A stretch of DNA of 40,715 nt from Oscillospiraceae bacterium (lineage in GTDB: Bacteria > Bacillota > Clostridia > Oscillospirales > Oscillospiraceae). A model generated the notes under the pieces. The model did no database searches. It saw nothing but the letters and a program-made list of their open reading frames with translations, and was not told the DNA's origin. Below are positions 14,641-26,229 of the stretch, one piece after another; the stretch's first letter is position 1, and every line of letters begins with the position of its first letter. Made by a program: the position numbers and the translations under genes. The DNA is taken from positions 1-40,715 of the forward strand of contig JAFQCV010000010.1 of the NCBI GenBank assembly GCA_017416325.1. Direction: 5' to 3'.

Positions 14641-16692
14641 TTAGAAGACAACGATATTGGTAAATCCACTTTCCTCTATCTTGTTGCAGATAAACTCTTT
14701 CAGAATTTCAGCGGAATGGGTAGCCGTTACAATTTCAATCTCCCAGCCATGTGCAACCGGATCCATGATGAACAGCATATCGCAGTTGCTCTGTTCAAAC
14801 ACAGTACGGTTTGTTTGCGCAGTTTTTCGCAAATAGGCCGCAGCAGAGATTGTTTCAAATGTGTTGAAGTCAACGAGAATGTCCGATTGCGTCCATGCTC
14901 CAATGCGAGGATAGACTAGCCGTTCCACATTAGGAACATAATTCATGAGGTTTTGGATGTAGTTTACGAGGCCTTCGCCAACATTTTCCTCCAAATCAAA
15001 GGACCGCTCCTTTGATTCAATGGAAAGCAAAACAGGACGATCGAATACCCCAAATAGCTCTAAAACATGATCGGGGCGCTTACCATCAACTTCTTCGCTT
15101 ACACGGGGCAAAGATAGCCAACGCACTTCATGGTTGCCACAAATGACAGAAAGGCCACTCCAGTCGCCACCAGGAGGATTACACATGCCTTCAAAGCAAA
15201 CTTCACGGAGTAGATGTGCAAAAAGAAAATGGATTCCTGCATCCACATCATCTTCGTGGAAGGATTGCGGGATGCTTGAAAAAGCGATTTGGGTCAAACC
15301 ATTTTCATCAGGCTGTTGCTCGATATAGTGCTCCTTCAATGCAGAAGTGTCTAAAAGGACCTCAGCATCGTATGTGTTAATGGCAGGCTTGGTGAGCACA
15401 GGAACATCAAGCGCGATGTAGTTGCTCAAAGAGAGAATGGCGCGCCAAAAACCATTGTAAGCTGCAAGACGTTCGGGACTAGCCATAAGTGCGTTAAAAT
15501 TGCGTTCAACAACTGGTCCGTAAATATATGTCATCACTTCAATATCAGTTGAGGCAAGCATAGCAGCTAACGGCAAAACACCTCTATCAGGTCGGTTGTC
15601 GTCACCTCCGGGTTTAAAACCCTTAATCATACACAAAAGCAAATCTGAGCGATTGGAGGAGATTCGATCAAGCACATTGGTGTCATAGGTTGGATATAAG
15701 CGGCGTATTCCATTCGCCAGTCTGCGTCTATTGGCGGCGGGGATAATTCCAAAGGGAAGATCTTTGGAGGCTAAGCCGACACTAAGACTTTCAACTAAAT
15801 CAAGAAATTCCGGAGAATTCCCATGGTGCCCTTTCCCGGAAATCTTCTTGCGAAAATTGAACCGAGAGTTTGCTAACGAAAAATCAACGATACTCTGCGG
15901 ATGGGTATATAGCTGACTCCATTGTGTAGGTGTAAAATTCGTGGAGGGACGTAAACTACTTGCAAGGAAAAGTACGATGTTTAGATTTTTTTGAAGAATA
16001 ATCGATTCTTCTTCACTTGTATCAAAACCACACATCCGTTTTATGATATATCGAGAAAGTTCTTCTTCAGCAAAATTTTCTTCGTCAAAGCCACGTAGTT
16101 TAGGTTCGGAATGTTTGTCGAATTCTGCAGAACGAACATAAAGTTGTGCGACAAAATTCTCTGAATCATCCGAGAAATTAATATAGCTATAAGGAACTGC
16201 AGGATTAGGAAAACGCAGTGATTTTCGTTCACGTGTTTTGGGATTAAGTTCGTAATTGACAAACTCAACAACGTATATATAGGGGCAGCCGGTTCGACCG
16301 GTAGAGAACGCACGACCACTTCGCTGCCACGCTTGATTACCAGCCTGCAAGGCACTACAAAATTCGATTGCAAAAAGAACGGTTTCTAATCCATTCTCTA
16401 CATAGGTAACAATGGCATCTGGTGTTTCATCGAGGAAACTGCCGCTGTTTTTAAGACCAGTAAAAATATTGGCCTCCCATCTGCTGCGGCCTGCTTTGTT
16501 AAACCCGGGCAGCAGTTCTAACTGCCACTGAAAATCGTATCCTAAATAGCTAAATTGAAGGTTATAAACAATGGTGGACGGGGACATCAAGGAAATTTCA
16601 ATGGATGTCGGGTCGGTTTCGTCTAAAATGAGCTTGGCGATTCGCTCACATTCCACAATATTATCGCCATGTATTCTAAATACTCTCGGCAT
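14641..16692 (-). CDS. Putative restriction endonuclease of the two-methyltransferase system
   Basis: 683 aa from ATG 16692 after GGAGGG; longer starts lack a ribosome binding site. I do not recognise a named enzyme. Two PD-(D/E)xK-like motifs can be read. The first is P91-D92, 18 residues, E110 with AGNQAWQRSGRAFS after it. The second is P540-D541, 18 residues, then E559-S-K561 (SIESKERS). Only the second has the canonical Lys; the first resembles variants with Gln. The gap between them is large and mixed alpha/beta. It is much longer than DpnII-type nucleases (about 290 aa). Its position convergent with two methyltransferases is the main reason for the call. Confidence 0.7.
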   Translation of the reverse strand: MPRVFRIHGDNIVECERIAKLILDETDPTSIEISLMSPSTIVYNLQFSYLGYDFQWQLELLPGFNKAGRSRWEANIFTGLKNSGSFLDETPDAIVTYVENGLETVLFAIEFCSALQAGNQAWQRSGRAFSTGRTGCPYIYVVEFVNYELNPKTRERKSLRFPNPAVPYSYINFSDDSENFVAQLYVRSAEFDKHSEPKLRGFDEENFAEEELSRYIIKRMCGFDTSEEESIILQKNLNIVLFLASSLRPSTNFTPTQWSQLYTHPQSIVDFSLANSRFNFRKKISGKGHHGNSPEFLDLVESLSVGLASKDLPFGIIPAANRRRLANGIRRLYPTYDTNVLDRISSNRSDLLLCMIKGFKPGGDDNRPDRGVLPLAAMLASTDIEVMTYIYGPVVERNFNALMASPERLAAYNGFWRAILSLSNYIALDVPVLTKPAINTYDAEVLLDTSALKEHYIEQQPDENGLTQIAFSSIPQSFHEDDVDAGIHFLFAHLLREVCFEGMCNPPGGDWSGLSVICGNHEVRWLSLPRVSEEVDGKRPDHVLELFGVFDRPVLLSIESKERSFDLEENVGEGLVNYIQNLMNYVPNVERLVYPRIGAWTQSDILVDFNTFETISAAAYLRKTAQTNRTVFEQSNCDMLFIMDPVAHGWEIEIVTATHSAEILKEFICNKIEESGFTNIVVF

Positions 16693-16737
16693 ATAGGAAC
16701 CCTCCATGAAATAGTTTTTCTGCTGGTTTTTTGTTTG

Positions 16738-16766
16738 ATTATAGCATAGAGGATAAGTATTTACAA
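16738..16766 (-). promoter_or_regulatory. Promoter of the putative endonuclease gene
   Basis: On the minus strand TTGTAA (complement of 16761-16766), 17 bp, TATAAT (complement of 16738-16743), about 45 bp before the start codon. No obvious dyad for the controller protein is seen in it. Confidence 0.65.
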
Positions 16767-16785
16767 GAATCCAATAGTTTGTCAA

Positions 16786-17101
16786 AAAACATAATATTTG
16801 TTGGTAGATACAGCTTGGATATTCCTCTGATACTTATTAATCTTAAACTATGGTTCAGAACCCCGATCCTAGAGCGGGGAAATCGGGACAAAAATTTACA
16901 GCGAAGCCGTGAACGATGTGTTGTCGTTCACGGCTTTTCTATCGGCTGCAAAGCCGATTTACAGGCCCAGAATGTTTCCCATGGTCGGGGCGGCTTTTTC
17001 TGTGCCGAGGTGGTGACATGGGCGCAGGTGTCCGGGGTGAACCCCAATGTATATTCTTCGGAAGAAACTGGCAGAATAGGCATATCACGGTGAAGGGAGT
17101 G
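16786..17101 (+). other. Intergenic region with an orphan terminator
   Basis: A 12-bp stem AGCCGTGAACGA (16905-16916) / TCGTTCACGGCT (16924-16935) followed by TTTTCT makes a rightward terminator with no gene before it. A weak promoter (TTGGAT, 17 bp, TAATCT, from about 16813) precedes it, so it could be an attenuated leader of the catalase gene or a short RNA. A GGCT-GCAA-AGCC hairpin follows. No protein-coding gene supported. Confidence 0.45.
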
Positions 17102-17773
17102 ATGTGCTTGTTCAAGCACGAAAAGCAGTTATTTCATCCGGTGGCGGTGGAGCGCCCCAATCCCCAGTACGCGGCACTGCTGCAGGAGCAGCTAGGTGGC
17201 GGCAATGGCGAGCTGAAAGCCGCCATGCAGTATATGTCCCAGAGCTTTCGCATCAAAGATCCGAAGATCAAGGATCTGTTTCTTGACATTGCGGCGGAGG
17301 AGCTGGGGCACATGGAGATGGTTGCCCAGACCATCAACTTGCTCAACGGCCATGATGTGAATGCGGCGCAGGTGCCCAGTGGAGAAATTCAGAGCCATGT
17401 GATCCTGGGACTGAATCCCGGGCTCATCAATGCTTCCGGCTATTCCTGGACGGCAGATTATGTTACAGTGACCGGAGATCTGTGCGCCGATCTTTTGAGT
17501 AACATCGCATCGGAACAGCGGGCGAAGGTGGTCTATGAATACCTGTACCGACAGATCCATGACAAGAAGGTCCGGGAAACCATTGATTTCCTGCTGAACC
17601 GGGAAGAGGCTCACAATCAGATGTTCCGGGATGCTTTCAATGCGGTGCAGAATTCCGGCTCCAATCAGGATTTTGGCACCACCAAGGCAGCAAAGATGTA
17701 TTTCTCCCTGTCCGATCCCGGTCCGAATGCTTTCGCAGGGAACCCGGTGAATCCACCAAAGTTTTCTAACTGA
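17102..17773 (+). CDS. Manganese catalase (CotJC-like)
   Basis: 223 aa. A non-haem dimanganese enzyme of the ferritin-like fold that converts hydrogen peroxide to water and oxygen; in spore formers the CotJC branch is a coat-associated protein. Candidate metal ligands are E37, E67, H70, E138 and H171, in the motifs GELKAAMQYM, AAEELGHMEMV, SNIASEQRAK and REEAHNQMF. The start at 17102 follows AAGGGAG and removes an unsupported N-terminal extension. There are no adjacent cotJA/cotJB genes. The C-terminal ~35 residues (DPGPNAFAGNPVNPPKF) are proline-rich. A terminator follows. Confidence 0.9.
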   Translation: MCLFKHEKQLFHPVAVERPNPQYAALLQEQLGGGNGELKAAMQYMSQSFRIKDPKIKDLFLDIAAEELGHMEMVAQTINLLNGHDVNAAQVPSGEIQSHVILGLNPGLINASGYSWTADYVTVTGDLCADLLSNIASEQRAKVVYEYLYRQIHDKKVRETIDFLLNREEAHNQMFRDAFNAVQNSGSNQDFGTTKAAKMYFSLSDPGPNAFAGNPVNPPKFSN

Positions 17774-17811
17774 TCAGGAAATCTCTTTATTTGATTGCTT
17801 CGTATTGTTAG

Positions 17812-17863
17812 CTGCCGCCAGACGGGATCAGTCGATCCTGTCTGGCGGCAGTTTCTGTTTTTT
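17812..17863 (+). terminator. Rho-independent terminator of the catalase gene
   Basis: An 18-bp stem starting CTGCCGCCAGACGGGATC with loop AGTC and tail TTTCTGTTTTTT. The stretch from 17864 to 18086 shows no gene. Confidence 0.9.
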
Positions 17864-18086: not shown

Positions 18087-18115
18087 TTGACAACAGGGAA
18101 TTTTGGATGTATAAT
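18087..18115 (+). promoter_or_regulatory. Consensus promoter of the oligopeptide ABC operon
   Basis: TTGACA 18087-18092, 17-bp spacer, TATAAT 18110-18115. The leader of about 80 nt contains a short AGGTGG/CCACCT stem and a strong ATAGGAGGAAAAATC ribosome binding site. It suggests high basal expression. Confidence 0.85.
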
Positions 18116-18202: not shown

Positions 18203-20353
18203 ATGAAAAAGCTTCTTGCACTGTTGCTGGTTGCTATGATGGCCGTTTCTATGGTCGCATGCGCACCTGCCAACACCGACCCCACAGAGAGCACCAACAA
18301 GAATGTCGAGTACGTTGATCCCTTTAAGGACATCACTGACTACGACGAGCTGTCCGCCGCTGTTTATGACCTGGTTCTGGGCGACTTCTACGAAGCCTAT
18401 CAGGCAGCCCTGGCGGAGAAGAATGTTCCCACCCGCTATGCCTTGATGGCTATTGCCGAGGCTAAGCTGCTGGGCGCAGGCATCTTCCTGCCCACCACTT
18501 CTCGGGGCGGCAACTACGCTATGACCAAGATCGCTCCCTACACCAACACCCCCATCCTGTACGGCAACGACACCTACCGTTTCCACGACCGTATTGTTAC
18601 CAAGGAGCCCATCGAGGCTGCTCACATTGCAGAGATGAAGGCTAAGTGGAACGAAGTAATCGGCACCGGCACTTACGAGCAGTGGGTCAAGGACTACCTG
18701 ACCGGTAAGGGCTACACCATCGAGGACACCGCTACCTTCTACTTTGATGCGGATCTGGAGTCCTGGGATGTTCTGGCAACCTCCAATGCTGCTGACTCCG
18801 AGATCCTCGTCCAGACCTATGACGGTCTGTATGAGTACGATATGGAGAACAAGGCTCAGCCCGCTCTGGCTCTGAGCTACACCGTTTCCGATGACGGCCT
18901 GAAGTACACCTTCAAGCTGCGTGAGGGTGTGGTCTGGGTTGATAACCAGGGCCGTAAGGTTGCTGATCTGACTGCTGACGACTTTGTTGCTGGTATGCAG
19001 CATGCAATGGACCAGGGTCCTGACCTTGGTTACCTGACTGGTGCTGGCTGCGCCAACATCCTTAACGCTGATGCATATATGAACGGCGAAATTACCGATT
19101 TTGCTCAGGTTGGCATCAAGGCTGTTGACACCTACACGGTTGAATACACCCTGTCTGAGGCTACAAGCTACTTCCCCACCATGCTGGGCTACGGCGTCTT
19201 CGCTCCCATGAGCCGTTCTTACTACGAGTCCATGGGCGGCAAGTTCGGCGCTGACTTCGACAGCTCTGCTGAGACTTACCTGTACGGCAAGGGCCCCGAC
19301 TCCATCGCTTACTGCGGTCCTTACATCATCACCAGCTTCACCTCCACAAACTCCATCGTTCTGGAGTCTAATGAGACCTACTGGAATGCTGGCAACAACA
19401 ATCTGAAGTCCTTCACCTACATGTATACTGACGGCACCGACCATCAGAAGATGTACGATGACTTCTTCAACGGCGTTGTTGACACCCTGGGTATGACCAC
19501 CGAGCGTGTCGAGATCGCTAGAAAAGCTGGAACCTTTGATAAGTATGCTTACATCTCCGACACCGATGCAACCACTTACTGCGGCTTCTTCAACCTGCGC
19601 CGTGCTGCTTTTGCTAACTATAACGACGCAAACGTTGGTAAGTCCTCCAAGACTGAGGAAGAGATCGTCCGCACCGGCGCTGCCATGCTGAACCAGAACT
19701 TCCGTCTGGCTCTGGCTATGTCCATCGACCGCGGCACCTACAACGCGCAGTCCGTAGGCGAAGAGCTGAAGCTGAACTCTCTGGTCAACTCCTACACTCC
19801 CGGCAATTTTGTGTTCCTGGAGGAGGAAGTTACTGTCAGCATCAATGGCACTGACAAGACCTATGCTGCCGGTACTATGTACGGCCAGATCGTGCAGGAT
19901 CAGCTGACTGCTGACGGCATCCAGCTGACCGTTTGGAACGGCTCTTCTTCCGTTGGCTTCGACGGCTGGTACAACAAGGAAGCTGTTGCTGCCTACATGG
20001 CTAAGGCTGTCGAGGAGCTGAAGGCAAAGGGCATCGAAGTTTCCGCTGAGAAGCCCATCTATCTGGACATCCCCGTCCGTGGCGACAGCGAGAACTCCAA
20101 GAACCAGAAGAATGCTATGAAGCAGTCCATCGAGGACGCTACCGCCGGCTGCATCAAGGTCAACCTGGTTGAGTACGCTACCCGCGACACCTATCTGGAT
20201 GCTACCTACTGGTACAGCGCTGGCTCTGAAGCCAACTTTGACCTGAACGACGGTTCCGGTTGGGGCCCCGACTACGGCGATCCCTCCTCTTACCTGAGCA
20301 CCATGCTGCCTAACTACTCTGGCTACATGACCAAGTCTCTGGGTATCTTCTAA
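18203..20353 (+). CDS. Oligopeptide ABC transporter substrate-binding lipoprotein, apparently circularly permuted
   Basis: 716 aa with a lipoprotein signal (hydrophobic residues 4-19, lipobox SMVAC, Cys20). From residue ~185 the order is that of a normal SBP_bac_5 protein: SWDVLATSNAADSEILVQTY, DGLYEYD, PALALSYTVSDDGLKYTFKL, REGVVW, then TADDF, and finally GWGPDYGDPSSYLSTM close to the C-terminus. In ordinary family members about 90-110 residues follow that last motif, including an RYxxxxxAExxL helix and a strand reading IP. Here the protein stops soon after, and such a segment is instead at the N-terminus (residues ~45-140: TRYALMAIAEAKLL, GIFLPTTSRGGNYAMTKIAP, DRIVTKEPI). The fold is therefore probably intact but permuted. 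It captures peptides outside the membrane for the OppBCDF proteins encoded next. Confidence 0.88.
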   Translation: MKKLLALLLVAMMAVSMVACAPANTDPTESTNKNVEYVDPFKDITDYDELSAAVYDLVLGDFYEAYQAALAEKNVPTRYALMAIAEAKLLGAGIFLPTTSRGGNYAMTKIAPYTNTPILYGNDTYRFHDRIVTKEPIEAAHIAEMKAKWNEVIGTGTYEQWVKDYLTGKGYTIEDTATFYFDADLESWDVLATSNAADSEILVQTYDGLYEYDMENKAQPALALSYTVSDDGLKYTFKLREGVVWVDNQGRKVADLTADDFVAGMQHAMDQGPDLGYLTGAGCANILNADAYMNGEITDFAQVGIKAVDTYTVEYTLSEATSYFPTMLGYGVFAPMSRSYYESMGGKFGADFDSSAETYLYGKGPDSIAYCGPYIITSFTSTNSIVLESNETYWNAGNNNLKSFTYMYTDGTDHQKMYDDFFNGVVDTLGMTTERVEIARKAGTFDKYAYISDTDATTYCGFFNLRRAAFANYNDANVGKSSKTEEEIVRTGAAMLNQNFRLALAMSIDRGTYNAQSVGEELKLNSLVNSYTPGNFVFLEEEVTVSINGTDKTYAAGTMYGQIVQDQLTADGIQLTVWNGSSSVGFDGWYNKEAVAAYMAKAVEELKAKGIEVSAEKPIYLDIPVRGDSENSKNQKNAMKQSIEDATAGCIKVNLVEYATRDTYLDATYWYSAGSEANFDLNDGSGWGPDYGDPSSYLSTMLPNYSGYMTKSLGIF

Positions 20354-20388: not shown

Positions 20389-20512
20389 GGAGGGTGGGCG
20401 AATTTTCGCCCATCCTCCCGATTGGCACTATGGCAAAGCACTGTTGGATAGGAAATGCTGCCCCCAGTATTCCTTGTGGTTTGGTTTTATCTGCCAGGAA
20501 TATTGAGGGCAG
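20389..20512 (+). other. Two long hairpins between binding-protein and permease genes
   Basis: GGAGGGTGGGCGA (20389-20401) pairs with TCGCCCATCCTCC (20406-20418) without a U-tract. CTGCCCCCAGTATTCC (20458-20473) pairs with GGAATATTGAGGGCAG (20497-20512). Such hairpins can protect the upstream mRNA from 3' exonucleases or attenuate, giving more binding protein than permease. This accounts for most of 20354-20582. Confidence 0.7.
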
Positions 20513-20582: not shown

Positions 20583-22154
20583 ATGACAAAATATTTAATC
20601 AGCAGAATCCTGCGGGCACTGTTCTCTGTTGTCCTCGTTATTGCGGTGATCATGGTGATGATCTACTCGTTCCTGGACAAGCAGTCGATCTTTGCCAACG
20701 ATCCTTCTTTCACCAAAATGAAGCTCAATGCAAAAGAAACATACATGATGCAACAGTGGGAGAAGTATGGCTATCTGGACTATGTTCCGTTTGCCGATTA
20801 TCTTCAGGAAGAGGTAAAGGCAGGACGCCTGACCCAAGAGGAAGCTGATTCGGCAAGGCTTGCGATCACCGCCGAAGAAGACGATGAGCATACCAAGGCT
20901 CTGGTGGATGCGTTTACCGAAAAGTATAGAAGCGAAGGCTACGAGGTTGAGCGCCTTCCCGGTTCTTATAAGATCGGCACCAAGAAGTACAAGGAAGGTG
21001 GCGAGCCTCGCCTGTACGCCTCCAAGGATGTTCCCCTGATCAAGCGGCTGGTAACCTACTTTACCGGTCTGATCAAGGTGGATAATATCCATAATGTGGA
21101 GAGTATAGAAGGGGAGCGGGGACTGACCTTTACCTGGCGCGACCCTGCCTACGGCGGAGAAAAATTCTCTCCTGCCATTATGGGTAACGGTACAAGCTAT
21201 AAGTATTTGCTGTACTTTGATGATTCCTTCCCCTATATCCACCAGAATCTGGTGAAGATCCGCCTGGGCGTTTCTTACTCTGTTAATAGAAATATTGACG
21301 TGTTTAACACCATGACGGATGCCCAGGGTCCCCAGAAATTCACCACCATCACCTATCCCAGCGGTGTGGTGGAAACGACTGCGGATGATATCCATTCGCT
21401 GCGATACATTCCTGACACCAAGGATTCCAGTCTGCTGAATCAGAAGTACTATGTGGACAATTATACCGGTGTTACCACCGCCAAATCCGGCTTGTCCCAG
21501 ATGGGGTATTCTTTCAGCATCGGTATCATTTCCGTAATTCTGGCATACCTGCTGGCTGTGCCCCTGGGCGTGATGATGGCGCTGAATAAGGATAAGTTTA
21601 TCGACAAGCTGGGCACTTTCTATATTGTTTTCATTATGGCAGTGCCTTCCCTGGGCTATATCTTTATCTTCCGCGCCATCGGCAGCAGCTTCAAGCTGCC
21701 TACCACATTTGATATGCAAAATCCCACATGGCTGATGTATGTGCTGCCGGTGATTTCTCTGGCTCTGCCCTCCATCGCGAACCTGATGAAGTGGCTGCGC
21801 CGGTATATGATCGACCAGATGAACTCTGACTATGTGAAATTTGCCCGCAGCGGCGGCCTTTCTGAGGGTGAGATCTTCAGTAAGCACATTCTGAAAAATG
21901 CGATCATTCCCATCGTACACGGCATCCCCGGCAGCGTGCTGGGCGCTCTGACAGGCGCTATCATTACCGAGCGTGTGTACCTGGTACCCGGTATCGGTAA
22001 TGTCCTGACAGAAGCCATCAACAAGTATGATAACGGCGTTATCGTCGGCGTCGCGCTGTTCTATGCGCTGCTGTCTGTTACGTCCTTTATCCTGGGAGAC
22101 GTGCTGATGTCCATTCTGGATCCCAGAATTTCCTTCTCTTCGAAAACGAGGTGA
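20583..22154 (+). CDS. oppB: Oligopeptide ABC transporter permease OppB-like, enlarged external domain
   Basis: 523 aa, against about 306 for typical OppB. Membrane helix 1 spans residues ~9-31. The next helix begins only at ~312 (SFSIGIISVILAYLLAV), so roughly 280 residues lie outside the membrane in place of the usual 60-70. The C-terminal five-helix core is standard and has the EAA loop (YVKFARSGGLSEGEIFSKHI, then LKNAIIPI). Start ATG 20583 follows GAAGGAG. It forms the channel with OppC. The extra domain is rich in charged residues and could contact the permuted binding protein. Confidence 0.9.
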   Translation: MTKYLISRILRALFSVVLVIAVIMVMIYSFLDKQSIFANDPSFTKMKLNAKETYMMQQWEKYGYLDYVPFADYLQEEVKAGRLTQEEADSARLAITAEEDDEHTKALVDAFTEKYRSEGYEVERLPGSYKIGTKKYKEGGEPRLYASKDVPLIKRLVTYFTGLIKVDNIHNVESIEGERGLTFTWRDPAYGGEKFSPAIMGNGTSYKYLLYFDDSFPYIHQNLVKIRLGVSYSVNRNIDVFNTMTDAQGPQKFTTITYPSGVVETTADDIHSLRYIPDTKDSSLLNQKYYVDNYTGVTTAKSGLSQMGYSFSIGIISVILAYLLAVPLGVMMALNKDKFIDKLGTFYIVFIMAVPSLGYIFIFRAIGSSFKLPTTFDMQNPTWLMYVLPVISLALPSIANLMKWLRRYMIDQMNSDYVKFARSGGLSEGEIFSKHILKNAIIPIVHGIPGSVLGALTGAIITERVYLVPGIGNVLTEAINKYDNGVIVGVALFYALLSVTSFILGDVLMSILDPRISFSSKTR

Positions 22155-22160
22155 TACGCA

Positions 22161-23150
22161 ATGAATGAAAATAAGATCAACCTGAGTGAATTTAACCTGT
22201 CCGACGAAGAGCTGTTTGCTCCCGTTGCCCAGGATGAGCTGGCTTCTGAGCGTATCACGGCTCCCAGATACTCCTATTGGCGCAGTGTGTTCCGTGTGTT
22301 CTTCCGCAAGAAGATCAACATTGTTGCCCTGGCGCTGCTGGCTGTTCTGATTATTTTCTCCTATGTGTATCCCGCTGTCATCGGCTACGATGCCGCGGTG
22401 GACCCCTATGTCAACCTGATGGACGGCTCTACCAAGCACCTGAAGCCCGCGGATGCGATCGCGAAGTTTGGCTTCAACCTGAAGTGGATCCTTGGCTCCG
22501 GCGCTTCCGGCAACTCCACCTTCGATGCCATCTGGTATGGCTCCAGCATCTCCATTTCTCTGGCGCTGGTCTGCGCGGCCATCAATATGATCGTTGGCGT
22601 TGCCATCGGCGCGGTATGGGGCTTCAGCCGGAAATTCGACATCGTGATGACGGAAGTTTACAACGTGGTGGCTAATGTGCCGTATATCCTGCTGATCTCC
22701 GTTATCGTTTTGATCATGTCTGCCAGCTTCTGGTCCATGGTCTTTGCGTTGACCGTTACCGGCTGGATCGCCATTGCCTACTTTATCCGTACCCAGGTTA
22801 TCATTATCCGTGACCGGGAGTACAATTTGGCATCCCGGTGTCTGGGAACCCCCATCACCCGCATCGCTACCAAGAACATCCTTCCCTTTATGACCTCCGT
22901 TATCGTGACGCTGGTTGCTACCGAGATCCCCTCCTACATCTCCTACGAGGTGTTCCTGAGCTATATCGGCATGGGACTTTCTGATATGTCGCTGGGTAAG
23001 CTGATCGAGGCCGCAAAAAGCGCTATGATCACCCCCGGCTGGGGATTCGAGTTCTGGAGCCCCGTTGCGGTGGCTTCCATCATCGCTGTGGTGCTGTATG
23101 TTGTCGGCCAAAATCTGGGCGACGCGTCTGACCCCAGAACCCACATGTAA
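22161..23150 (+). CDS. oppC: Oligopeptide ABC transporter permease OppC-like
   Basis: 329 aa, normal length for the family. An N-terminal cytoplasmic segment (SDEELFAPV) leads to membrane helix 1 (NIVALALLAVLIIFSYV), then an external loop and five helices including SISISLALVCAAINMIVGV. The EAA loop reads REYNLASRCLGTPITRIATK. It starts 7 bp after oppB with a GAGGTG ribosome binding site. Paired with OppB to form the transmembrane pore. Unlike its partners it shows no large insertion. Confidence 0.93.
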   Translation: MNENKINLSEFNLSDEELFAPVAQDELASERITAPRYSYWRSVFRVFFRKKINIVALALLAVLIIFSYVYPAVIGYDAAVDPYVNLMDGSTKHLKPADAIAKFGFNLKWILGSGASGNSTFDAIWYGSSISISLALVCAAINMIVGVAIGAVWGFSRKFDIVMTEVYNVVANVPYILLISVIVLIMSASFWSMVFALTVTGWIAIAYFIRTQVIIIRDREYNLASRCLGTPITRIATKNILPFMTSVIVTLVATEIPSYISYEVFLSYIGMGLSDMSLGKLIEAAKSAMITPGWGFEFWSPVAVASIIAVVLYVVGQNLGDASDPRTHM

Positions 23151-23162
23151 GAGGTGACGGAT

Positions 23163-24911
23163 ATGGAAAACAAGAAGGTTTTGCTGTCCGTTAAGGACCT
23201 TGAGGTTAAATTCCGTGTTCGTGGCAGAATTCTGACAGCGATTCGCGGTGTTTCCCTGGATTTTCACGAAAATGAATCCGTTGCCATTGTTGGTGAGTCC
23301 GGTTCCGGTAAGTCCGTCTTTACCAAGACCTTTGCCGGTATGCTGGAGACCAATGGCTACATCAGCAACGGCTCTATCATCTTCAACGATGAGGAGCTGG
23401 CCGATACTTCCGTTGTGCTGGATACTACCGCTGTACGGATGATCAACGCGGCGAAGGAAGCTTTGAACCGTTACGCCAAGCTGGAGGCCGGCGCTGAGAT
23501 CTACAAGCAGATCTTGGAGCTGGAATCGGAAAAGAAGCAGCGCGCCACCATCAGCGATGCGGAAGATCAGGCAGCGACTGCCCAGATCGAGGATCTGGTG
23601 TTCAAGCGCACGGAACTGTTCAATCAGCGTCAGACTGTTGACACCAAGAACGAAAAAGAGCGCTACCGCGCTATGGGCAATGAGATCGCCGAGCTGGACA
23701 AGCAGATCAAGGACCTGCAGAAGGCCAAAGCGGAGATGATCAAGAGCCACCGGAAAGCCATCCATTCCGACTCTGCATACCTGAAGCAGTACGAAGCGCG
23801 TATGAACGAGCTGAAGAGCGCCTATGCAAAGGCCATTGATTGCACCGTCTCCGATGAGACGAAAGCCCGCAACGAGATCATTGCCAAAGAAATATACCTT
23901 TCTGTTGGCCGTTTCAGCGCGCACAAGCGCAGTCAGTGCCATACCAAGCTGCTGAAGGCCATGAAGAAGGCGATGCAGTTGGGTGTTGATCTGGGCGATG
24001 AAGCACAGAGAAACAGTGTCTTCGACAGCGTTGTCTTCCGCGTAAAATACCTGGATGAGACATCTGAGAAGCTCCACGGCACTTGCGTGCTGAATCTGGC
24101 AAAGATCCAGGATGCCAAGGACTGGAGCCAGATCCGCGGCGGCAAGATCGCCACCGTCTTCCAGGATCCTATGACTTCTCTGAACCCCATCATTACCATC
24201 GGCAAGCAGATCACATCCATCATTCTGAAGCACCAGGACTGCACGGAGCTGGAAGCCCGAGCCAGAGCGCTGGAGCTGATGAAGAAGGTTGGCATCCCCA
24301 ATGCGGAAAAACGCTTTGACGATTATCCCTTCCAGTACTCCGGCGGTATGCGTCAACGTATCGTTATCGCCATTGCCCTGTCCTGCCAGCCCAAGATCCT
24401 GATCTGTGACGAGCCCACCACGGCGTTGGACGTTACCATTCAGGCTCAGATCCTGAAGCTGATCAAGGACCTGCAGAAGGAATTCAACTACACTATCGTA
24501 TTTATCACCCATGACCTGGGTGTTGTTGCCAACGTTGCTGACCGCGTTGCTGTTATGTATGCCGGCCAGATCGTTGAGACCGGTACGGTGGAAGAAGTCT
24601 TCTATGATCCCAAGCATCCCTACACTTGGGCTTTGCTGTCCAGTCTGCCTCAGTTGGCACAGCGCAATACGACCCTGTATTCTATTACCGGCACGCCTCC
24701 GTCGCTGTATAACAGCATTGTTGGTGATGCCTTTGCTCCCCGAAATCCCTACTGCCTGAAGGTGGATACCCTGAAGGAGCCTCCCATGTTCCAGGTTACC
24801 GATACCCATTATGCAAAGACTTGGCTTCTGGACCCCAGAGCGCCTAAGGTGGAAAAGCCGGAGATCATCCAGAACATCCACGAAAAGCTCATTGATGCAT
24901 TCAATATTTAA
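23163..24911 (+). CDS. oppD: Oligopeptide ABC transporter ATPase OppD-like, with large internal insertion
   Basis: 582 aa, against roughly 330-360 normally. Walker A GESGSGKS is at residues 44-51, Q-loop TVFQDP has Gln334, signature YSGGMRQR is at 392-399, Walker B ILICDEP at 412-418 and the switch His is 450. Normally the Q-loop follows Walker A by about 55-65 residues; here about 280 separate them. The insert, residues ~80-320, is charged and helical ([40 protein letters not shown]) and probably includes coiled coil. The remainder, including the oligopeptide-type C-terminal domain ([15 protein letters not shown]), is standard. I chose ATG 23163 over GTG 23154 because it is better spaced from GAGGTG. 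It energises OppBC. Confidence 0.9.
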
Positions 24912-24924
24912 GGAGGGGTGTGTC

Positions 24925-26229
24925 GTGTCAAAAGATAAAATGAAAAAGACTGCCTCTTACTTGCCCGAGCATGGTCCCATTGCGGAAAACGGCAGAGAGA
25001 TCCTGCTGTCTGTCAAAAATGTGGATATCACCTTCGGTAAGGGCGACAACGCGGTGAAGGCTGTTAAGAATGCCAGCTTTGATATTTACAAGGGCGAGAC
25101 CTTCTCTCTGGTTGGTGAATCCGGCTCCGGTAAGACCACTATCGGCCGTGCCGTCATCCGTGTCAATCCCTGTGCCGCCGGTGAGATCCAGTACAAGGGC
25201 GTGCGTATTTCCGGCAAGACCAGCCGTGGTCTGGACCGGGAAGTCATCCGTAATATCCAGATGGTTTTCCAGGACCCTGCAGCATCTTTGAACGAGCGTG
25301 CAACGGTAGATTATATCATCTCCGAGGGTCTTTACAATTTCCATTTGTACGAGAATGAAGAAGATCGCATCCGCAAGGTCGAGAAGATCGTGGAAGAGGT
25401 AGGTCTGCTGCCTGAGCACTTGACCCGCTATCCCCATGAGTTCTCCGGCGGCCAGCGTCAGCGTATCGGCTTGGCCCGTGCCATGGTTATGGAGCCTGAA
25501 CTGGTTATCGCCGATGAGCCCATCTCCGCGCTGGACGTTTCTATCCGCGCGCAGGTTTTGAACCTGCTGAAGAAGTTCCAGCGTGAGAAGAATCTGACTT
25601 ACCTGTTCATTGCTCACGACTTGTCCATTGTTCGGTTTATTTCTGACCGGATCGGTGTTATCTACAAGGGTAACATTGTGGAGGTAGCAGAGGCGGAAGA
25701 ACTGTTTGACTATCCTTTGCACCCCTATACTCGCAGCCTGATCTCCGCCATTCCCATCCCGGATCCCAAGCTGGAAAAGAATAAGGTGCTGTTTACCTAC
25801 GATCCCTCTGTTCACGATTATTCCCAGGAGCAGCCGGAGCTGGTCAACATCGGCCACGAACACTATGTCTACGGCAATACCAAGGAGATCGAGGAGTACA
25901 AGGCAATCCGCGATGCCGGTGTACCCATGAAGTCCATCACCATCATGGACCCTGAAACGGCAGCAAATGACGCGCCTGTGCAGCAGGAGATCGACTGGAA
26001 CAGCAGTCAGTTTATGCTGCAGACACCCCTGCACGATACCGGCAGCCTGTGGTATACCATCGGTTCTTTCTTACTGCCGCCTCTGGGCATTATCGGCGGC
26101 CTGCTCTTTAAGAAGTTCAAGCATTTGCGCAACGCAAAGGCTTGCTTCAAGGGCGCGTGGATCGGGCTGGGACTGCTGGGCGCTATCGTTGCGCTGTTTG
26201 GCATATTCCTGTTGTCTGCCCTGCTGTGA
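24925..26229 (+). CDS. oppF: Oligopeptide ABC transporter ATPase OppF-like, with membrane tail
   Basis: 434 aa from GTG 24925, preceded by AAGGAGGGG; the longer frame overlaps oppD without support. Walker A is [10 protein letters not shown]-loop [10 protein letters not shown], signature [15 protein letters not shown], Walker [13 protein letters not shown], and switch His in FIAHDLSIV. The family's C-terminal peptide-type segment ([16 protein letters not shown]) follows. Beyond residue ~370 it has an extra ~60 residues with two hydrophobic helices ([18 protein letters not shown] and [20 protein letters not shown]) separated by a basic loop, which is not usual for a cytoplasmic ATPase. The stop overlaps the next start (ATGA). 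Confidence 0.92.

Follow-up and report, generated by a model that had tools for sequence, protein, structure and literature searches.

A substrate-binding protein (SBP) of 716 amino acids, encoded in the 40,715-nucleotide stretch of DNA from an Oscillospiraceae bacterium analysed here (the window), carries the two segments of its chain in swapped order, the segment that ends its relatives coming first. Judged from its sequence and that of its neighbours, it is very probably the peptide-binding lipoprotein of an Ami-type oligopeptide ABC importer, with a circularly permuted chain.

The gene (18203-20353, + strand) is an intact, single open frame with AGGAGG ahead of its ATG. The parts of the gene and of its product are:

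18087..18115, + strand: putative sigma-70 type promoter-like site upstream of the gene, TTGACA-17-TATAAT, 12 of 12 consensus bases
18203..18262, + strand: signal peptide and lipobox from sequence, residue 20 being the predicted lipidated Cys
18263..18310, + strand: tether, residues 21-36, ahead of the first residue matched by the canonical profile
18311..18655, + strand: moved block (residues 37-151), counterpart of the canonical C-terminal end; 42.8 bits at profile positions 494-612, hhalign 99.2%
18656..18727, + strand: linker (residues 152-175) that connects the former C- and N-termini; its length in the 46 permuted proteins is 20-27 residues
18728..20314, + strand: core SBP, residues 176-704, canonical profile positions 43-501 (301.7 bits; Pfam SBP_bac_5)
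20258..20272, + strand: putative site for the peptide N-terminus, GWGPD, in which W687 and D690 align with AmiA W504/D507
20315..20350, + strand: new C-terminus (YSGYMTKSLGIF), the final residue being aromatic in 41 of the 45 permuted proteins with a complete C-terminal end

The promoter-like site is the best of four in the scanned region, where shuffled sequence gives an average of 2.4 sites. The lipobox reads VAC at residues 18-20, and 45 of the 46 permuted proteins have one. Further upstream, a manganese-catalase-like gene (16916-17773) is followed by a 20-pair terminator-like hairpin and a T-rich stretch (17810-17853), and the reverse strand holds a 714-residue open reading frame (14641-16785) that has no Pfam match at E 0.001.

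An earlier note on this DNA had described a series of family motifs in unusual order, and all of them are present in the order that it gave: RYALMAIAEAKLL (residues 78-90), FLPTTSRGGNYAMTKI (95-110) and DRIVTKEPI (129-137) come before SEILVQTYDGLYEYD (199-213) and GWGPDYGDPSSYL (686-698). The chain does end early after the last of these, as described, but the distance is 18 residues rather than about 25.

Comparison with PDB sequences by phmmer gives the same picture at the level of whole segments. Residues 175-715 of the window protein align with residues 12-506 of the AliC chain, and residues 68-117 align with 530-579; the swapped second stretch also appears against AmiA (67-148 with 533-622) and AliB (64-139 with 520-601). 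All three printed alignments are swapped, but the second stretches are individually weak (i-E 22, 0.24 and 1.8 for AliC, AmiA and AliB, respectively), and a profile was therefore built from 17 canonical relatives (623 positions). Twenty canonical regions had been fetched; three of them (L063, L068 and L074), which matched the first part of the core only, were omitted.

The canonical profile finds two separate matches in the window protein, one of positions 43-501 (residues 176-704) and one of positions 494-612 (residues 37-151), so that the block fills the missing canonical part with almost no gap or overlap. When the mature chain is rotated to start near residue 157, one continuous alignment covers positions 43-612 with 337.9 bits, as against 301.7 bits for the best single piece without rotation. 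Among 500 shuffles of residues 21-175, the maximum score is 4.4 bits, compared with 42.8 bits for the real block. When the block, represented by 25 permuted sequences, is compared by hhalign with the full canonical alignment, it matches columns 504-615 of 622 at a probability of 99.2 and E 7.5e-19; this is the single significant match, the sole other alignment having a probability of 0.1. The profile finds block then core in 26 of 26 permuted proteins, and a second block at the chain end in none of the 26. All 17 canonical proteins are in normal order when each is left out of the profile in turn, 16 of them as one alignment and L070 as two pieces. The chain is thus made of two swapped segments that cover the parent and become continuous on rotation, as in a circular permutation; instead of the canonical Ami-type order (core, then C-terminal block and helix), the block precedes the core. 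The proposal that the C-terminal piece now stands at the N-terminus is borne out by the rotation, the profile search with its shuffles, hhalign and the 46 distinct permuted proteins described below.

A genome scan returned 11 loci, ten of which cover essentially the whole query at 50-74% identity; one (L012) is partial. To follow the rearranged joint itself, residues 40-259 served as a joint-region query. At E 1e-5, some match is found in 180 of 398 genomes of the phylum, but among the matches listed, essentially full coverage occurs only in the window's genome and in G142; most of the others listed cover only the query's last third or so, which is the canonical N-terminal part. At E 1e-20, matches are found in 5 of 391 genomes of the class and 12 of 200 of the family, numbers that, like those for the phylum above and the order below, include the window's genome and come from overlapping draws. 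One permuted gene, in G872, is split across two contigs, and three genomes of the window's own genus listed in the family-level search have no match. At the level of the order, a query made from an alignment of the joint gives matches in 25 of 394 genomes, of which 24, in eight families, span the joint; the other (G862) is a partial match and canonical. The permuted protein is thus widespread but patchy.

Another 23 rows are also in permuted order; three of these repeat earlier loci, so that 46 distinct permuted proteins, all of them different, enter the trees below. Two loci cut by contig ends (L012 and L048) and four short copies that were re-fetched at greater length (L049, L051, L052 and L054) had been omitted before counting. 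Most permuted rows were found by way of the joint itself, and thus their order is partly a matter of how they were chosen; this does not account for the constancy of the cut point, nor for the fact that none of the 46 proteins contains both copies of the block. In one member (L078, 851-3325, reverse strand), S-layer homology domains precede the permuted SBP and no lipobox was found; its gene start is unsure, since the first 200 codons of the frame contain no ATG and a contig end is nearby.

As predicted from sequence, the SBP gene is the first of an oppABCDF operon whose permease is AmiC-like. The downstream features are:

20389..20418, + strand: stable RNA hairpin in the gap between the SBP gene and oppB (with flanks -29.5 kcal/mol, z -6.6)
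20583..22154, + strand: oppB, permease with AmiC-like extracellular region, BPD_transp_1 at residues 325-517
20673..21500, + strand: extracellular region of OppB, residues 31-306, positional counterpart of AmiC ECD1/ECD2, with no Pfam match
22161..23150, + strand: oppC, permease with BPD_transp_1 and OppC_N
23154..24911, + strand: oppD, ATPase with ABC_tran and oligo_HPY; NF043079 (MMSYN1_0167) at 734 bits, cut-off 740
24925..26229, + strand: oppF, ATPase with ABC_tran and oligo_HPY; from the sequence, a GTG start after AGGAGG is preferred over ATG at 24811

The hairpin is absent from the list of terminator-like structures in the scan, and it could set the level of the binding protein above that of the permease. 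In OppB, a region of about 270 residues follows the first membrane helix, in agreement with AmiC, in which residues 31-278 form two extracellular domains according to the available excerpts of a study of the Ami system (PMC11192437). An AmiC-like permease with a large extracellular region is thus encoded in the same operon as the binding protein. Over residues 1-519, OppB is 38% identical to the permease of an unpermuted Ami-type operon in a streptococcal-type genome (G292). Genes for OppB and OppC lie downstream of the SBP gene in nine of the 11 loci of the genome scan, the exceptions being L007 and L008. When nine genomes were searched for OppB, full-length relatives were found only in G142, which has a permuted SBP, and in G292; the best match in each of the other seven is limited to about residues 304-521. 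The extracellular region is present in 3 of 299 genomes of the phylum (the window's, G142 and G292, the last with a canonical SBP) and in 6 of 291 of the class, namely five with a permuted SBP (by the joint query, E 1e-20) and G628; the match in G409 is a fragment at a contig end. Since G628 has an Ami-type operon with an SBP in canonical order, the unpermuted form exists in the same class.

Two features of the ATPases stand apart. OppD has an insert of some 200 residues (about 96-313; 23439-24092) between the Walker A region and the remaining ATPase, and its match to NF043079 is nearly full-length. Neither of the two canonical Ami-type operons compared (L134 and L136) has the insert; it is present in an operon with a permuted SBP (L135), as in the window's. 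At the C-terminal end of OppF (about residues 377-434; 26053-26226), a simple hydropathy scan shows two hydrophobic stretches resembling membrane helices, unusual for an ABC ATPase.

The Ami system (AmiA, AliA-AliD and AmiCDEF) has the same sequence parts, a Trp/Asp site for the peptide amine, a counterpart of the C-terminal helix and the same operon order, as far as the excerpts describe it (PMC11192437). The closest solved relatives of the core are AliC, AmiA, AliB and AliD, and the core is 29-31% identical to five canonical proteins of Ami type. The same source assigns AliD, AliB and AmiA residues of the Trp/Asp pair to the amino terminus of the peptide; by alignment, this pair is present in the window protein, and neither W687 nor D690 varies among the 25 permuted proteins aligned. 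With its lipobox, the window protein also has the type of anchor found in Ami proteins. It differs from them in its permuted order, in an anchor that would sit on Lobe 2, and in that the counterpart of the C-terminal helix is internal.

The position of the anchor can be estimated from the published domain boundaries of AliD, in which Lobe 1 consists of Domain I (residues 29-63, 191-296 and 583-617) and Domain II, Lobe 2 is Domain III (297-582), and a C-terminal helix (622-652) lies against both Domain I and Domain II (PMC11192437, in part). For AmiA, 21 was added to the phmmer chain index to obtain residue numbers, with W504 as the reference. By this mapping, the moved block comprises the counterparts of the end of Domain III, of the final Domain I segment and of the first part of the C-terminal helix. 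Both canonical ends of AliD are on Lobe 1, and so a short linker (20-27 residues) could bridge them; some linker positions are conserved, among them G170, which is the same in all 25 permuted proteins aligned. The new chain ends fall at about AmiA 527 and 554 by alignment, within Domain III, and thus the lipid anchor should lead into Lobe 2 and not Lobe 1. That the anchor is on a different lobe, as the earlier note had supposed, fits the AliD boundaries when the sequence is mapped to AliD and AmiA numbering: it has probably moved from Lobe 1 to Lobe 2.

The rearrangement may then be pictured as follows. After the signal peptide and tether, the chain would begin with the canonical C-terminal segment (the last part of Domain III, the last Domain I segment and the C-terminal helix); a linker of 20-27 residues would connect the old C-terminus with the old N-terminus; and new ends would have been opened in Domain III, after the GWxPDYxDPxxYL block. 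The overall fold and the import of peptides would presumably be the same. In AliD, at most about 16 residues separate the first listed ligand contact (G39) from the anchor Cys, which is stated as Cys23 for the group (PMC11192437, excerpts), whereas in the window protein it is some 80 residues from Cys20 to about G102, the equivalent of AmiA G590. With more of the chain between the anchor and the nearest mapped ligand contact, tether strain might be kept off the binding loop, leaving Lobe 1 freer to close and dock on the permease. In a published AlphaFold model, ECD1 of AmiC is wedged between the lobes, ECD2 contacts Lobe 1 only and AmiD contacts Lobe 2 (PMC11192437, excerpts); in E. coli DppABCDF, a scoop motif of DppB lies in the DppA cleft (PMC12136057, likewise in part). 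Anchoring by Lobe 2 could thus keep the protein over the OppC side, with Lobe 1 free to close and to be gripped by OppB.

A reading in which the permutation is real but makes no functional difference, the anchor having moved while docking and binding proceed as in Ami systems, falls only a little short of an even chance. The invariant binding pair and the AmiC-like permease speak for it, as does the wide variation in tether length, 21-91 residues. On the other side, all 46 proteins found share the order, some linker positions are conserved, and the permuted tethers are longer than canonical ones when measured from the Cys to the fold. The median in 45 permuted proteins is 50 residues, measured to profile position 512, a figure that includes up to some 18 residues still matching the profile in a few members, the window's among them; in canonical proteins, measured to profile position 43, the tether is 19-21 residues in 14 of the 16 with a detected lipobox and 140 in the other two. 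The charge of the C-terminal helix counterpart was also considered as a difference and rejected as too variable (means of -0.5 in 19 canonical and -1.4 in 46 permuted proteins).

Trees were calculated separately for the core and the block. In the core tree (66 rows and 539 columns; a quick tree with a midpoint root), the 46 permuted proteins make up one side of a branch with SH-aLRT 99 and are sister (SH-aLRT 100) to the five canonical proteins of Ami type, of which a single streptococcal-type genome supplies four and a genome of the window's own class the fifth (L134); three canonical rows, including L134, are long-branched and ten canonical rows are odd in composition. In the block tree (109 columns, with a bootstrap that has not settled), the permuted proteins again form one clade (100/99). 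The sequences thus place the permuted proteins in a single clade, with one origin.

How the order arose is a separate matter. Published models for circular permutation include duplication and fission and fusion (PMC3320104, in part). The earlier note had proposed duplication and trimming within one gene; the block could instead have come from another SBP gene by fusion, the protein's own C-terminal end being lost afterwards. The resulting end topology is identical and the origin alone differs. We regard an origin from two genes as rather unlikely, though it has points in its favour: the best free block tree separates the block from the Ami proteins, the sisters of the core, and the excerpts on TpMglB-2 of Treponema pallidum (Tp0684) also raise an origin from different genes (PMC4990184). 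Neither the 46 permuted proteins nor the canonical ones scanned include a partly duplicated intermediate. However, the AU test does not reject a tree that keeps the block with the Ami proteins (p 0.248), and the block fills the missing part almost exactly. Mean identity of the block is 23% both to Ami-type and to other canonical blocks, and the 109-column tree, which does not settle placement among the canonical proteins, was set aside as a test of the source. Four canonical proteins with N-terminal extensions (L059, L064, L066 and L067) were considered as duplicated intermediates and rejected: each gives one normal-order match in the leave-one-out search and no second block. In the rows used, the profile starts at residues 115-143, and the extension is presumably a stalk-like repeat domain.

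Pfam places the protein well above its curated cut-off in SBP_bac_5 (PF00496; 154.3 bits against 32.4, E 6.3e-45), and thus among Cluster C SBPs. The earlier note had expected two swapped pieces, but the search returns one, at residues 218-704 (profile 2-363 of 368), and nothing in residues 21-176; the moved block alone has no match in Pfam or NCBIfam up to E 10. An unrelated domain at residues 30-170 of an SBP that merely lost its C-terminal end would give this result, and the related canonical L059, L064, L066 and L067 do have N-terminal additions. We consider such a domain very improbable: the profile, hhalign and the rotation all put the block on the canonical C-terminal end, and PF00496 ('Middle') misses that end in canonical proteins too, stopping in the four scanned at 519 of 654, 524 of 659, 562 of 685 and 502 of 628, with 123-135 residues beyond. 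The earlier note would have taken a complete domain next to a foreign fold as evidence against a permutation; a nearly complete Pfam match is indeed there, but residues 37-151 match the canonical C-terminal end and not another fold. Because Pfam ends before the moved piece in either case, it cannot reveal the order, and both libraries, which give nothing for the block, were dropped as order tests. Such proteins can therefore escape notice in annotation. Misassembly, a frameshift or a pseudogene can safely be dismissed, although the assembly is fragmented (90 contigs), by the same order in ten other loci at 50-74% identity over about the whole query and one more in part, with no internal stops among the matches listed. 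Since dozens of relatives keep the rearranged order, it has the look of a genuine, heritable redesign rather than of a damaged gene.

Other SBPs bear on the comparison. E. coli OppA and DppA (Cluster C) share the SBP_bac_5 core and, at the level of motifs, the Trp/Asp site, which in OppA we take to be W416/D419; their canonical order differs. Compared with OppA, the C-terminal helix is an extra element of Ami proteins (PMC11192437, excerpts). The best NCBIfam match of the window protein is the Mollicutes OppA model NF043077 (MMSYN1_0169), at 114 bits far below the cut-off of 650, while OppD of the operon nearly reaches the sister model. From the profile alone, the order of NF043077 is canonical, with the core start at 43-135, the GWxPD region at 635-733 of 896 and about 160 positions after it; on these positions, Mollicutes OppA was rejected as a possible older permuted form.

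In the literature consulted, partly as excerpts, one other natural circular permutation was found among SBPs. TpMglB-2 is a permuted glucose-binding protein of Cluster B with demonstrated ligand binding, and relatives of it are reported from Gram-positive bacteria, including many gut commensals; the authors of that study suggested the name 'Cluster Bc' and considered that tethering might be the cause (PMC4990184, in part). Both it and the window protein are natural permutations of a tethered SBP. However, TpMglB-2 binds sugar, is of Type I/Cluster B and has the first N-lobe strands near its C-terminal end, whereas the window protein has the C-terminal end first and, by sequence, a Cluster C core outside 'Cluster Bc'; we infer two independent events. 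In the open-access literature, judged by title and the start of the abstract, no permuted oligopeptide-binding or Cluster C protein was recognised. In the available text of PMC2588589, 'circular permutation' and SBP_bac_5 both occur, but in a reference title and a table only, and in that of PMC10601554 domain dislocation appears only in a reference; both were set aside.

The protein is, on its sequence, a permuted variant of a known receptor, an SBP for peptide uptake in gut bacteria. We suggest tentatively, as an idea more open to doubt than to acceptance, that it represents an independent natural permutation defining a permuted Cluster C subclass, and that, with TpMglB-2, tethered SBPs repeatedly escape by permutation the constraint of an anchor beside the binding site; here Lobe 2, which faces the AmiD-type subunit in the published Ami model, would be anchored, and Lobe 1, gripped by the large AmiC domain, would be freed. 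Because the permuted and Ami-type canonical proteins are sister groups with a matching permease in both, and one canonical member of the sister group is in the same class as the window protein, the effect of anchor position on an ABC importer is directly testable. If tethering drives such changes, as raised for TpMglB-2, the permuted family in Clostridia would be a second test case.
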